Virus record (IMG/VR): IMGVR_UViG_3300022871_000021
Span: 1 to 56,027 of that record
Direction: 5' to 3' (one strand)
Length of the DNA: 56,027 bases
Origin: a virus
Below the pieces are notes generated by a model. The model was given only the letters and a program-made list of their open reading frames with translations. It did not search any database and had not been told where the DNA came from. This document shows, piece by piece, positions 45,776 to 50,639 of the stretch (the stretch's first letter is position 1; each line of letters opens with the position of its first letter). The position numbers and the translations under genes are program-made.

Positions 45776-47740
45776 ATGCGTATAACTAAATTAGAATTAA
45801 AAAATTTTCAAAAGCACGAACATTTTGAGGCAGATTTTACGGATAAGGTCAATGCCTTATACGGGGAAACCGACTGTCTATCGTCTGATACTTTTATTCT
45901 ATATCATACTGTATCAATTAAAGGAGTTTTGCAGAACTGTAAAGGTGGAACGATTAAAAGACTTTATGATTTATTTCATAAAATTTCGGCTAAAGGTAAA
46001 GGGCTTTATTTTAGAAAAGAGTCTTTAAATAGTAAATATAAAATTGCTTCAATAAATGATGAGGATTTAGTTTTTAGAAATGATATTGAAGATGTCGTTC
46101 ATTCAGGTAAAAAACATTTATTTGAGGTAGTTACAGAAAGTGGGTTTAAGATTAAAGCCTCAGGAAAGCATAGATTTTATGTAGGTTCAGGAAAATATCG
46201 AAAATTGCAGGAATTGTCTAAAGGAGATATTGTTTATATTCACACAAATAAGAGGAAGAAAATAAAGAAAAAAGTTGAAAGGCATAAATCAGTTTGTGTA
46301 AAACAACATCCTCAAGGTAGCTTGAAAATAATCAATAAATGTAGATATTACCGAATCCAAAAAAGTAGATTAGTTTACGAAGCTCGATTAAATGGTTTGA
46401 CTATAGAGGGATATAGAGGAATTTTAAATAGTAATGAGGATATAAAACATTTAAGATTTATAAATTCATCTATATATGAAATACATCATAATAATTTTGA
46501 TAGATTAGATGATAGATTTGAAAATCTTAGTTTGATGATAAAGACAGACCATAAAAGATTACATAGAGAACAATCTATTTTAAATGTAAGGCCTAAAGCC
46601 TATCCTGATATTATTCAAGAAATAAAAGATGTTGGATTTGGTGATACATATGATATTAAAGTAAAAAATCCTTATAATAATTTTATAGCAAATAATTTAG
46701 TGGTTCATAATTCAGGAAAATCTTGTATAGTTAGAGCTATTAAGTGGGTGATTTATGGAGAGCCTAAAGGGGATATAGTTAAGAAGGAAGGAACGGATAA
46801 AACGTCGGTTCGGATTACTCTCGATTCGGGGGTAATAGTAGAGAGAAGAAAGTCAACATCAGTTAATGCTTATATAATATATAAAGACAACGAAGCAAGA
46901 AAGTTTGATTCTATAGGTAAATCTGTTCCAGATGAAGTCAAGAATATATTTAATATGAATCCGATGATTGTGAATAAAGAGCAAGTTTTTTTAAATATAT
47001 CTAATCAAATATCTCTGCCTTTTATGTTAAAAGATTCTTCTACTTTTAGGATGAAAGTTTTAAATAAGTTAACAGGAAATGATGTTCTTGACGAAGTCGC
47101 CCAATCATTTAACAGGGATTCACTTAAGTTTAGTCGTGAGGGTAAAATTATAGATGAAGAAGTTGAGGCTAAGAGGTCATCCTTAAAAGAGTTAAGTGAC
47201 GAAAAGAACATAACAGAAGGATTATTGTCTAGGGTAAAACCTTTAGTGGAGTCATCATCCAAGAAGATAAAGAAATATAAAGAGGCTTCAGATATTAAGC
47301 GTAGATTGAGCGTATTAGATGACAATGTTCAGTTTAACTTGAATAAAATGGAGTGCATAAAATATCCAGATGAGAAAATCATTTTTCGGGTTGAGAAAAT
47401 AATTGATAAATTTGAAAAAGTTAAGGCCTTTTCTCAAAGGTTATCGTCAGGTCAGGAAAATTTATCTATTATATCTGACCAGTTAAAGTCTATAAAATTT
47501 CCCAAAAATGTAAAGTCTTTATATGAGAGGGCAGAAATGCTCCTCAAAGTGTCCAGATTGACTGCTGATGAACGAAAGAAGGCAACCCTATGGTCTACCA
47601 TAGGCGAGGAATTGGTTACAGTTGCGGAGCGGGTAGAGGAGGGTAACATTAGATATATTCAAATTTTAAAGAAGTATAACAAATGTCCAGTTTGTCAGAG
47701 TAAATTGACGGATGAGATATTTAAGGGGATTAAATTATGA
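45776..47740 (+). CDS. Rad50/SbcC N-terminal half with zinc hook, interrupted by an intein
   Basis: 654 residues from ATG 45776 (SD AAAGG); TTG 45731 is rejected because it lies in the stem-loop. Starts MRITKLELKNFQKHE, the ABC/SMC N-lobe. Exteins join as LYGETD-SGKSCIVRAI, restoring Walker A. After the lobe comes a coiled coil (SFNRDSLKFSREGKIIDEEV onward), and the protein stops 15 residues after the zinc-hook motif NKCPVCQSKL. Signature and Walker B motifs are absent; they are encoded at 49250. Without the intein it is 375 residues. It should act with the Mre11-like nuclease at 48066 in DNA end processing. Confidence 0.88.
   Translation: MRITKLELKNFQKHEHFEADFTDKVNALYGETDCLSSDTFILYHTVSIKGVLQNCKGGTIKRLYDLFHKISAKGKGLYFRKESLNSKYKIASINDEDLVFRNDIEDVVHSGKKHLFEVVTESGFKIKASGKHRFYVGSGKYRKLQELSKGDIVYIHTNKRKKIKKKVERHKSVCVKQHPQGSLKIINKCRYYRIQKSRLVYEARLNGLTIEGYRGILNSNEDIKHLRFINSSIYEIHHNNFDRLDDRFENLSLMIKTDHKRLHREQSILNVRPKAYPDIIQEIKDVGFGDTYDIKVKNPYNNFIANNLVVHNSGKSCIVRAIKWVIYGEPKGDIVKKEGTDKTSVRITLDSGVIVERRKSTSVNAYIIYKDNEARKFDSIGKSVPDEVKNIFNMNPMIVNKEQVFLNISNQISLPFMLKDSSTFRMKVLNKLTGNDVLDEVAQSFNRDSLKFSREGKIIDEEVEAKRSSLKELSDEKNITEGLLSRVKPLVESSSKKIKKYKEASDIKRRLSVLDDNVQFNLNKMECIKYPDEKIIFRVEKIIDKFEKVKAFSQRLSSGQENLSIISDQLKSIKFPKNVKSLYERAEMLLKVSRLTADERKKATLWSTIGEELVTVAERVEEGNIRYIQILKKYNKCPVCQSKLTDEIFKGIKL
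45875..46711 (+). other. HNH intein in the Walker A motif of the Rad50 N-half
   Basis: 279 residues from Cys (CLSSDTFILYHTVSIKG) to the canonical VVHN before Ser +1. Block B-like ASGKHRFYVG is present. An HNH homing nuclease lies inside: YEIHHNNFDRLDDRFENLSL then TDHKRLH. AT content and codon use look like the host gene. The splice junction residues are all canonical. Confidence 0.92.
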
Positions 47741-47913
47741 GGGTGGAAATTAGATTGAGTAATTTTGAGGAATGTAAAGATTGTCTTTTATTGAAAGATT
47801 CGGGTCAAATTGAGGATAGGTATAAATGCAAACTTTATAAGATAAATTTAGATTGTGATGTGAGGCATAGAATCCATAGGCCTCAAAAATGTATATTGGA
47901 TAATGGGAGATAA
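47737..47913 (+). CDS. Small cysteine-containing protein
   Basis: 58 residues overlapping the Rad50 N-half stop (ATGA). Four or five cysteines (FEECKDCLLL, YKCKLY, LDCDVRH, KCILD) could bind metal. Lies inside the Mre11/Rad50 cluster. Not recognised. Confidence 0.55.
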   Translation: MRVEIRLSNFEECKDCLLLKDSGQIEDRYKCKLYKINLDCDVRHRIHRPQKCILDNGR

Positions 47914-47916
47914 AAT

Positions 47917-48069
47917 ATGATATGGATTGAAAGATTATTCTGGATATTAGGTATGTCATTCCTAGCATATATTTGTTTTGTTGGGGGGTATAAAAGGGCT
48001 ACTGACCGTTGGACGGAACATTACCGAAAAGTTCTTGCTAAGCTATACCTGTTGGGGATTAAATTATGA
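47917..48069 (+). CDS. Small single-pass membrane protein
   Basis: 50 residues. One membrane helix (LFWILGMSFLAYICFVGGY) followed by a basic tail (KRATDRWTEHYRKVLAKLY). Stop overlaps the Mre11-like start (ATGA). A membrane peptide inside a DNA-repair cluster is unexpected; role unknown. Confidence 0.5.
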   Translation: MIWIERLFWILGMSFLAYICFVGGYKRATDRWTEHYRKVLAKLYLLGIKL

Positions 48070-49034
48070 AATTTTTATATACTTATTGTAGTCATATAAA
48101 AGGTTCAAATCCTCTTTATCGTAAAGGTAATTATTATGAAGATATAAAAGCTAAGATTAAAGAGATAGTGTTCTTATCGGGTGGTGTAGATATGGTGGTT
48201 CATGGAGGGGATTTCGGAGATGCTCCGATGATGGCTCTTGGCGTGGCAGATGAGATAGTAGATATGATTGAGGCGGGAGGAATTCCTTGGTATATAGTTA
48301 GAGGGAATCACGACGAAATAGGCCATAACCCAAATCTTTCGGGTGAATCAATTTTAGACCATATTTTTAGACGTTCAAAGTTAATAAGGCATCTTGATGT
48401 CATAAATGATGGTATCGTTACTGAATTTGAAAACGGAAAACAGATTAGAGGTGCCAAGACTGTTATTCAGGGATTTGATTTTTATCACGGAATAGAAAAA
48501 GATTTGAATGAAAAAGGTTTATATTGTTCTGTTGAAACAGATGGGAAGAAGATAGCTGTTGTTCATGCTCTTATAATGGATAAACCATTCCATCCCCAAG
48601 TATTACATTCCGTCATAGGCGAGATTAAAACAGATTTTGATTTAGTTTTGATAGCCCATAATCATACAGAGATGGGAATTATTAAATATGGGAAAACTTC
48701 TTGGATTAGTATAGGGTCGTTAGCTCGTATTACGTCTGCTAAGAGCGATATAAACAGAATGCCTAATGTTTTATATGTTGATACCCTTGAACCTTCTTTA
48801 AAGATAATTCCTCTTAAATGCGGTAGACCAGTAGAGGATGCGTTTAATTTAGAGTTAGTGGATAAAATTAAGGAGAGGGAAGGTTCAATAGAGAGTTTTA
48901 TAAAAAGTCTTGAATCGACAAAAGTTAAAGGTTTAAATCTTAAGGGTATTATTGAAGAATTATGCGAAAAGGAAGCTGTAGATAAAGAAGTTTTAGATGA
49001 GATAATAGATAGGATAGGAGCCACTGAACAATGA
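48066..49034 (+). CDS. Mre11/SbcD-like nuclease
   Basis: 322 residues. Metallophosphoesterase motifs: II VVHGGDFGDAP, III VRGNHDE, IV VVHALI, V LIAHNHTEMG. Motif I is unusual: YTYCSHIKGSNP has Cys where the family has Asp (D-x-H). The C-terminal part (about residues 255-322) is helical and probably the Rad50-binding region. Known function is ATP-regulated nuclease at DNA ends with Rad50. The motif I change may alter metal binding. It is encoded between the two Rad50 pieces. Confidence 0.85.
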   Translation: MKFLYTYCSHIKGSNPLYRKGNYYEDIKAKIKEIVFLSGGVDMVVHGGDFGDAPMMALGVADEIVDMIEAGGIPWYIVRGNHDEIGHNPNLSGESILDHIFRRSKLIRHLDVINDGIVTEFENGKQIRGAKTVIQGFDFYHGIEKDLNEKGLYCSVETDGKKIAVVHALIMDKPFHPQVLHSVIGEIKTDFDLVLIAHNHTEMGIIKYGKTSWISIGSLARITSAKSDINRMPNVLYVDTLEPSLKIIPLKCGRPVEDAFNLELVDKIKEREGSIESFIKSLESTKVKGLNLKGIIEELCEKEAVDKEVLDEIIDRIGATEQ

Positions 49035-49043
49035 GGAGGGTTT

Positions 49044-49277
49044 ATGGATTACAAAGAAGAGCTTGACAAAATCGAAAAGGATGTTAACGAAAAGAAGATA
49101 GAAAAGGTTCGGTTAGAGGAAAGACAAAAGGCGTTAGGGATTGAAAGGGATGACATATTAAAGGAGCTTGCAGAGCTTGGGGTTTCTCTCGACGAGTTAG
49201 ATAGTTATTTAGAGAAAGAGGAAAAGGAAATAAAAGAGGGGATAGAAGAATGTCAGAAGATTTTACTGGAAAAATAG
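49044..49277 (+). CDS. Small coiled-coil protein between Mre11 and Rad50-C
   Basis: 77 residues, SD GAGGAGGG. Nearly all one charged coiled coil (EELDKIEKDVNEKKIEKVRL; LDSYLEKEEKEIKEGIEE). It lies where the descending arm of a Rad50 coiled coil would be encoded and may supply it as a separate chain. Stop lies inside the next gene. Confidence 0.6.
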   Translation: MDYKEELDKIEKDVNEKKIEKVRLEERQKALGIERDDILKELAELGVSLDELDSYLEKEEKEIKEGIEECQKILLEK

Positions 49278-49870
49278 AAGAGATTGGATATAAGCTAGCT
49301 ATTCATCAAAGACATTTTGATGAATTAGTTGGAAAGTGCGATATGTTATCTCAACAGCTAGATGTCCATAAGAAGAGGTCTAGCCTTATTTCTCATAAAC
49401 AGGAAGTTTATTCCAAGTCAATAGAGATATTGGATTTAGCCCAAAAGGTCTCTAGGGTTACGATGAAAGATGGCTTCGAATCTATAGTAACATATGCCCT
49501 TCAATTTATTCTTGGCGTGGGTTATAAGTTTGAACTTGAGTTTGATAGGTGGGGTAAATATCACGAAGTTAACTTCAATATAAAAACTGATGATTTCAAT
49601 CTAGCGTTTGACCCTCTCGATACATCTGGAGGCGGAACGATAGATATAGTTTCTCTGGCGTTAAGGGTAGCTATTATGGAATTACATAAACCAGAAATAT
49701 GTGGGCCTATAATTCTTGATGAAAGTTTTAAACATTTATCTCGTCAGCATTTATTTAAGGCAGGTGAATTTTTAAACGCTTTAGCTGAAAGAGTGGGTAG
49801 GCAGATAATAATAGTGTCTCATAAATCTGAACTTGTTAAAATGGCTCACAAAGCTATAGAGGTTAAATGA
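49250..49870 (+). CDS. Rad50/SbcC C-terminal half
   Basis: 206 residues. N-terminal coiled coil (EEIGYKLAIHQRHFDELVGK), then the C-lobe of an ABC/SMC ATPase: DTSGGGTIDIVSLALRVAIM (signature), ICGPIILDESFKHLS (Walker B) and QIIIVSHKSELVKMA (switch His). It has no Walker A, which is in the gene at 45776, 3.5 kb upstream. The two proteins must associate to make a working ATPase. It overlaps the coiled-coil gene by 28 nt. Confidence 0.88.
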   Translation: MSEDFTGKIEEIGYKLAIHQRHFDELVGKCDMLSQQLDVHKKRSSLISHKQEVYSKSIEILDLAQKVSRVTMKDGFESIVTYALQFILGVGYKFELEFDRWGKYHEVNFNIKTDDFNLAFDPLDTSGGGTIDIVSLALRVAIMELHKPEICGPIILDESFKHLSRQHLFKAGEFLNALAERVGRQIIIVSHKSELVKMAHKAIEVK

Positions 49871-50298
49871 AATTAAAGATTGAATTAGTTCCTTCGTCTT
49901 CTTTTTATAAGAACGTTCGTAGTAATGTATCAAGAAGTGAATGGGATATAATCAGAAGAAAATCTTATCAGAAGGCAAATTATAAATGCGAAATATGTGG
50001 CGGAGTAGGGAGCAAGCATCCAGTTGAGTGTCACGAAGTTTGGGAATATGATATAAAAACTAAAATTCAAAAATTAGTTGGATTTATTTCTCTTTGCCCT
50101 AAATGTCATCAAGTAAAACATATTGGGTTATCGCAAATTCGAGGTCTTTACGGTGAATGCTTAGAACATCTTTCTAAGGTGAATAATATATCGATAGATA
50201 AAGCTGAAAAATATATTGATGAGCGCTTCGAGGAATGGCAAGAGCGGAGTAATATTAAATGGACGTTGGATATAAGTTTACTAGAAATAAATAAATGA
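49867..50298 (+). CDS. HNH endonuclease
   Basis: 143 residues. HNH core: YKCEICGGVGSKHPVECHEV followed by GFISLCPKCHQVKHIG, with two zinc knuckles (CxxC and CxxC). N-terminal SEWDIIRRKSYQKAN is usual for this type. Could be a homing enzyme or take part in DNA processing with Rad50-Mre11 just upstream. ATGA overlap at both ends. Confidence 0.85.
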   Translation: MKLKIELVPSSSFYKNVRSNVSRSEWDIIRRKSYQKANYKCEICGGVGSKHPVECHEVWEYDIKTKIQKLVGFISLCPKCHQVKHIGLSQIRGLYGECLEHLSKVNNISIDKAEKYIDERFEEWQERSNIKWTLDISLLEINK

Positions 50299-50639
50299 GT
50301 ATATGGACTTATCTTAAAACTTGTTTGGTAAAGGGTTGTAAAAATGAAGTAGATTTTCAAGGGCATCATATTATACATAGAGGTTCGGGAGGAAGTGATG
50401 GACCTTGGAATAGATTAAAAGTTTGTAGAATTCATCATAATGAAGCACATGATATCGGGGAAGATGGATTTTTAAGTAATCATCCAGAACTTAAATTTTG
50501 GGTGGAGAGGGGAAAAAGGATTGAACGGGTATGGCAGAAAGAAAAGACAGGAAAGCTAGAGAACTTATCGGAAGAAGAGCGAGACATCTTGAAATACATC
50601 CAGAAAGTAAGAAAGTTTTACTCAACGGTTTCGAGTTAA
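50295..50639 (+). CDS. HNH-type nuclease or zinc protein
   Basis: 114 residues. CLVKGCKNEVDFQGHHIIHR, then DGPWNRLKVCRIHHNEAHDI, is an HNH-like ββα-metal pattern with His-His and a C-x-x-H-H pair. Second HNH gene in tandem. The C-terminal third overlaps the RusA gene by 109 nt in another frame. Confidence 0.7.
   Translation: MSIWTYLKTCLVKGCKNEVDFQGHHIIHRGSGGSDGPWNRLKVCRIHHNEAHDIGEDGFLSNHPELKFWVERGKRIERVWQKEKTGKLENLSEEERDILKYIQKVRKFYSTVSS

Follow-up and report, generated by a model that had tools for sequence, protein, structure and literature searches.

Can a Rad50 protein be encoded in pieces and still form a working complex? The question is raised by positions 45776 to 49870 of IMG/VR virus record IMGVR_UViG_3300022871_000021, a stretch of virus DNA of 56,027 nt that we call the window. 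Present in every domain of life, Rad50 is regarded as one continuous chain that carries a zinc hook at the apex of a two-strand coiled coil. In the window, two genes flanking an Mre11-like gene each encode a different part of such a protein. We propose that they very probably represent a genuine Mre11-Rad50 (SbcD-SbcC) complex in which Rad50 is made as two polypeptides, with the natural division at the zinc hook.

Two genes for one predicted Rad50 head

All genes of the cluster lie on the + strand. The Rad50 N-half (45776-47740) is a 654-residue frame that encodes an N lobe (Walker A and Q-loop) and, beyond it, a helical arm and a C-terminal CPVC hook followed by 14 residues to the stop; an intein interrupts the lobe, and an AAA_23 match follows it. 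The Rad50 C-half (49250-49870; 206 residues) comprises a basal coil of ~60 residues, the signature SGGGT (TSGGGT), Walker B LDE (GPIILDES) and an H-loop SH (IIVSHK), with matches to SMC_N (3e-5) and PHROG 15167 (8.5e-35). Between the halves lie the Mre11/SbcD-like nuclease gene (48066-49034; Pfam Metallophos, 1e-8) and the gene of a 77-residue helical protein, here called K (49044-49277), which is kept in most relatives and always stands 5' of the C-half. Without the intein, the sizes are 375 (N), 77 (K) and 206 (C) residues, and a profile search of the whole 56-kb record returned no SbcC-sized match. Re-reading of the frames bore out what a first-pass annotation had described here, namely the gene coordinates, the Walker A motif, the CPVC end, the signature and Walker B piece and the three sizes.

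Relatives were gathered by clade-alignment scans of IMG/VR and GTDB contigs, which yielded 397 sequences and 259 loci distinct by C-half. Wide alignments (A3, A4, and A1 on genome contigs) were unusable as queries due to low conservation, and clade alignments were used in their place. Profiles were then built for N, Mre11 (M), K, and C and applied to the 259 distinct loci.

Against the PDB, Rad50 is the top match of both halves. The N-half profile finds 3aux at 7e-22 over chain residues 1-221, and the C-half profile finds 3qkr at 2e-17 and covers 3aux residues 166-368; by this comparison, the two profiles cover complementary parts of one Rad50 core. Similarly, Rad50 ranks first in a Foldseek search with the AlphaFold model of an intein-free N-half (locus L008; predicted local distance difference test score, pLDDT, 82). 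Walker A (G..GK), the glutamine of the Q-loop and the hook cysteines (C..C) are invariant in 57 of 57 N-halves, while the C-halves retain the Walker B aspartate and glutamate in 240 of 240 loci, the H-loop histidine in 228, and the signature glycines (GGG) in 229-236. Of 236 N-halves, 231 have CxxC among their last 36 residues, which puts the hook at the chain end, unlike its canonical position. Three N-halves have a hook without CxxC spacing (CPIHKCVC in L239, CPIFDVPC in L328, and CPIVEEFGSC in L346). An SMC identity was considered and rejected: the chain ends at CxxC instead of at a hinge, the partner is Mre11-like rather than a kleisin, and SMC scores below Rad50 when the profiles are searched against the PDB.

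If the halves form one head, their residues should covary. Mean-field direct-coupling analysis of the four proteins across 240 loci (214 effective sequences) ranks N-C pairs with the strongest couplings in the entire set, and 76 of them reach at least the level of the 100th intraprotein coupling. At the same threshold, random re-pairing gave 0-1, swapping C-halves among relatives 0-7, and other gene pairs of the same clusters 17-30; those other pairs have a common ancestry, yet contact of this sort is not required of them. The coupled positions are those expected of a Rad50 head: N34-C197 joins the strand before Walker A to the strand after the H-loop, and the ladder N190-C31, N183-C38, and N176-C45 keeps a constant sum with a 7-residue step, a pattern typical of an antiparallel coiled coil. 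The N-C band in this antiparallel sense reaches z 7.5 relative to no more than 5.3 in N-C controls, and other gene pairs never rise above their own controls. N and C thus appear, as judged from these couplings, to fold together as one ATPase head with an antiparallel coil at its base. Pairing of the C-half with the N-half was the check that the first-pass annotation had put forward, and coevolution joins the two far above the shuffled, relative-swapped, and other-pair controls.

An arm of variable length and the small protein K

The first-pass annotation had also offered K as the missing descending coil, such that N, K, and C together would rebuild the ordinary two-strand Rad50 arm, with K as its upper descending strand. 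Gene order is the one point for a link to K: N, K, and C follow one another in 223 of 223 loci, collinear with the Rad50 chain, and K usually lies directly 5' of C (median K-C distance -4 to 6 base pairs, bp). The arm itself argues otherwise. The distance from N lobe to hook falls into classes with means of 146, 192, 242, 297, and 346 residues, all but 2 of 228 loci stay clear of the gaps between them, and the class changes at least 60 times on an approximate tree. In an AlphaFold model of the N-half from Bacillus phage vB_BboS-125 (pLDDT 77.5), arm helices of ~42 residues break near positions 196, 250, 297, and 344. The arm therefore appears to be built of ~49-residue units. A proline and loop profile anchored at the hook is noisy and places a unit boundary at one peak only.

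K does not follow these steps. Its median length is 83 residues and does not correlate with arm length (Spearman -0.10, p = 0.15); set against an N-arm of 145-346 residues, in AlphaFold an arm of moderate confidence, the C-half coil spans ~60 and K stays constant. Across the 240 loci, no coupling band of K with N, C, or Mre11 exceeds shuffled and other controls, and a K-C band of z 5.8 seen in a 106-locus subset was gone in the full set. K couples most strongly within itself (K7-K72), as a hairpin would. Because K length is independent of the arm and no coupling band rises above controls, the case for K as descending coil is unsupported, and we consider a three-piece arm doubtful. K has no profile match to canonical T4 gp46 or E. 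coli SbcC and belongs to PHROG 18563, annotated as function unknown; our best guess is that this conserved, helical-hairpin-like small protein stabilizes the arm or coil.

Gene order and breadth of the split family

All four genes lie within a few kb in 223 of the 259 distinct loci. In none of the 259 do N and C share one frame, and the family thereby departs from the single polypeptide that characterizes Rad50/SbcC. The flag C+N that the profiles gave to L133 (214 residues) proved to mark a C-half whose short coil resembles an N-arm, too short for both lobes. Only three gene orders occur among the 223 loci (N-M-K-C, 171; N-K-C-M, 38; M-N-K-C, 14), and order switches ~3 times on the tree. Mre11 is fused to the N-half in seven loci (L017, L024, L127, L131, L136, L137, and L138), which encode single frames of 707-820 residues and form one clade.

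The family also includes an isolated phage with a complete genome. Bacillus phage vB_BboS-125 encodes gp32 (471 residues, with CPLC near its end), a homing-endonuclease-like gene, gp34 (78 residues), gp35 (211 residues), and an SbcD-like frame. GenBank names gp32, gp34, and gp35 "exonuclease," "hypothetical protein," and "ATPase," respectively, and they were not recognized as one split Rad50. Likewise, the N-half (16465 and 1499), the C-half (15167), and K (18563) are separate PHROG families with no link between them. The window C-half matched only vB_BboS-125 and Microbacterium phage Magritte among 50,697 phage records, whereas T4 gp46 matches 3490, and this rarity may explain why the split went unnoticed.

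Magritte (OR553905.1) is unusual in that its N-half (gp155, 93838-94890) and C-half (gp2, 284-934) lie ~39 kb apart across the record ends, and its N-half lacks any cysteine hook. Such an arrangement is what one might expect if the halves acted separately, with an accessory or regulatory role for the C-half and ATP binding by the N-half in another assembly, without a Rad50 head. An ABC head, however, requires both halves for closure of its site, and the coupling of the Walker A strand with the post-H-loop strand, together with the antiparallel coil ladder, is specific to such a head. We therefore regard separate action as very improbable.

Less probable still is programmed frameshifting that joins K and C, such that two chains would really be made. 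The K and C genes of the window overlap by 28 bp in different frames, and the overlap contains an A-run, GGAAAAATAG, near the K stop. But K-C spacing among relatives ranges from overlap to well over 100 bp, and a separate Shine-Dalgarno-like sequence precedes each of the window genes (for example, GAGGAGG 5' of 49044). Finally, the out-of-frame overlap could be taken for the trace of one Rad50 gene broken up by an assembly break, sequencing frameshift, or decay, a reading left with practically no probability by the same organization in 223 distinct loci, in the L005 contig, in a complete isolated-phage genome, and in isolate chromosomes, and by the invariance of the catalytic residues. An assembly break splitting one gene was the first-pass annotation's own proviso; it is excluded because L005, which is near-identical yet not identical to the window, and hundreds of diverged loci share the layout. 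Overall, that annotation's core reading, a Rad50 divided into N and C pieces around or beside Mre11, holds, with halves that coevolve; its roles for K as missing coil and for the small genes of the cluster as an oddity (see below) do not.

Proposed mechanism and known relatives

Under the preferred reading of a Rad50 cut at its hook, one N and one C chain would form a heterodimeric ABC ATPase head; two such heads would sandwich ATP and join an Mre11 dimer to give an end-processing complex. Through zinc, the hook that ends the N chain would link two complexes or two arms. Since the chain ends at the hook and has no matching descending strand, the arm would be free to grow or shrink by ~49-residue helical units. 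Like gp46/gp47 and SbcCD, the complex may open or degrade DNA ends and so serve recombination. A role in phage recombination or cellular repair is suggested by analogy with these systems and by the recA neighborhood described below.

Several points weigh against this reading. The putative ATPase, nuclease, and DNA-end activities are assigned by homology. The coupling analysis is shallow at 214 effective sequences, and co-inheritance lifts the baseline of every gene pair; the antiparallel pairing of N and C coils by the head is what coevolution, rather than a structure, points to. In addition, the window Mre11 carries a cysteine in place of the first metal-ligand aspartate (YTYCSH, 48066-48100), a substitution found in only one other locus of the 240 (L073), and its nuclease activity may differ from that of the family.

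The nearest functional parallel is the phage recombination-nuclease pair gp46/gp47 of T4, which likewise has an N lobe, a coil with a CxxC hook, a C lobe, and small genes between or beside. T4 gp46 differs in being one chain of 560 residues with CxxC at 288, mid-chain, and a descending coil after it, and it is remote by sequence (N profile match ~1e-4). E. coli SbcC and SbcD belong to the same ATPase and nuclease families, with presumably the same role at DNA ends, but SbcC is one chain of 1048 residues and goes undetected where the split form is chromosomal. The best PDB sequence and fold matches are archaeal Rad50 proteins (Pyrococcus and Methanocaldococcus). The Pyrococcus core was crystallized as two chains (1f2t_A/B), though these were engineered; in nature this Rad50 is one unbroken chain, and its two-strand coils are long. 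Similarly, human Rad50 engineered as two polypeptides, an N-half and a C-half cut at the hook region, still assembles and activates ATM in vitro (PMC3642328). This is a laboratory construct with FKBP in place of the hook, and the passage that describes it mentions no natural counterpart (PMC3642328). Given the two-chain 1f2t core and the human construct, a cut at the hook is evidently tolerated.

A member of exactly this split family, gp32, gp34, and gp35 of vB_BboS-125, is present in an isolated phage, and the paper on its genome makes no mention of a split Rad50. We found no description of a natural split Rad50 in the open-licence literature, and it appears to be previously undescribed. A natural, widespread split of this kind would mean that Rad50 can do without a covalent link across the hook. 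It also provides ready-made two-chain material for structural work, in which the roles of arm length and hook are directly testable, and it explains hundreds of phage genes annotated merely as "exonuclease," "ATPase," or "hypothetical."

A chromosomal version in thermophile-rich Bacillota

In 11 of 20 bacterial loci, the cluster is chromosomal and has the order thpR-recA-M-N-K-C-rny-ymdB (L090, L092-L094, L096-L099, and L101-L103; in L101, thpR lies beyond the end). Carriers are Tepidanaerobacter, Fervidicola, Thermovorax, and related genomes. On a midpoint-rooted FastTree phylogeny, the 11 loci form one clade (support 1.0) beside phages with M-N-K-C order or the Mre11-N fusion. Across 22 genomes of the bacterial order to which these carriers belong, 19 encode the C-half as a separate frame of 223-244 residues.

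An SbcC profile recovered full-length SbcC from the five Bacillales genomes, where the split cluster lies outside this chromosomal setting and is presumably prophage. In eight genomes of the thermophile clade, the same profile gave only short Walker A-region matches. Long PF13558 matches in the thermophile genomes were tried as SbcC candidates and rejected as JetC of Wadjet in the four genomes examined. Canonical SbcC is likely absent from the thermophile-clade genomes, for which completeness figures are not given. From the chromosomal position beside recA, in bacteria where canonical SbcC went undetected, it seems that a cell can use a phage-type split Rad50 as its own repair complex.

On balance, we consider it probable, if well short of established, that the split form constitutes a distinct Mre11-Rad50 branch. 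Its Rad50 would be an obligate N/C heterodimer whose arm ends in the hook and can expand by helical units of ~49 residues, and K would be a fourth conserved subunit. Such a branch would be common among uncultured phages and, from an insertion between recA and rny, would supply the only Rad50 of a thermophile-rich Bacillota order (Tepidanaerobacter and relatives).

Mre11 partner, intein, and neighboring genes

Mre11 lies close to the Rad50 halves in the 223 loci and is fused to N in the seven noted above, an association drawn from the genes. Its metal-ligand motifs are strongly conserved across the family (D9 in 237 of 240 loci, GD in 239, and H154 and H189 in all 240), and in the window all but the motif I aspartate remain intact. 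Profile positions 84 and 187 covary across the 240 loci: GQHD occurs with GDxH in 131, GNHD with GHxH in 82, and N with D in 21, a pattern that reads as an alternative set of active-site ligands.

The intein of the window N-half (45875-46711) splits the Walker A P-loop as GETD|SGKS and extends 279 residues from C34 to N312. It has a splicing domain (Pfam Intein_splicing, 6e-12), Cys1, a C-terminal His-Asn, and Ser+1, together with a weak match to an HNH endonuclease (HNH_3), and homologues lack the insert at exactly that site. Only the window and the near-identical L005 carry it among the aligned relatives. Splicing would restore the P-loop and would thus be a precondition for ATP binding by the window head.

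Two small open reading frames separate the N-half from Mre11, one of 58 residues that contains cysteine (47737-47913) and one of 50 residues with one hydrophobic stretch (47917-48069). Neither has a family match and both are probably outside the complex; the gap between N and Mre11 is absent in about half of the relatives. Such genes are unremarkable: in T4, genes 46 and 47 likewise have small neighbors, 46.1, 46.2, and 47.1, the last a predicted membrane gene.

Directly 3' of the window C-half, HNH-type open reading frames occupy 49867-50639 (the second was judged by its sequence alone), and in vB_BboS-125 an AP2-type gene lies between the N-half and K (L002, 4113-4685). In both, homing-endonuclease-like genes cluster around the split points.

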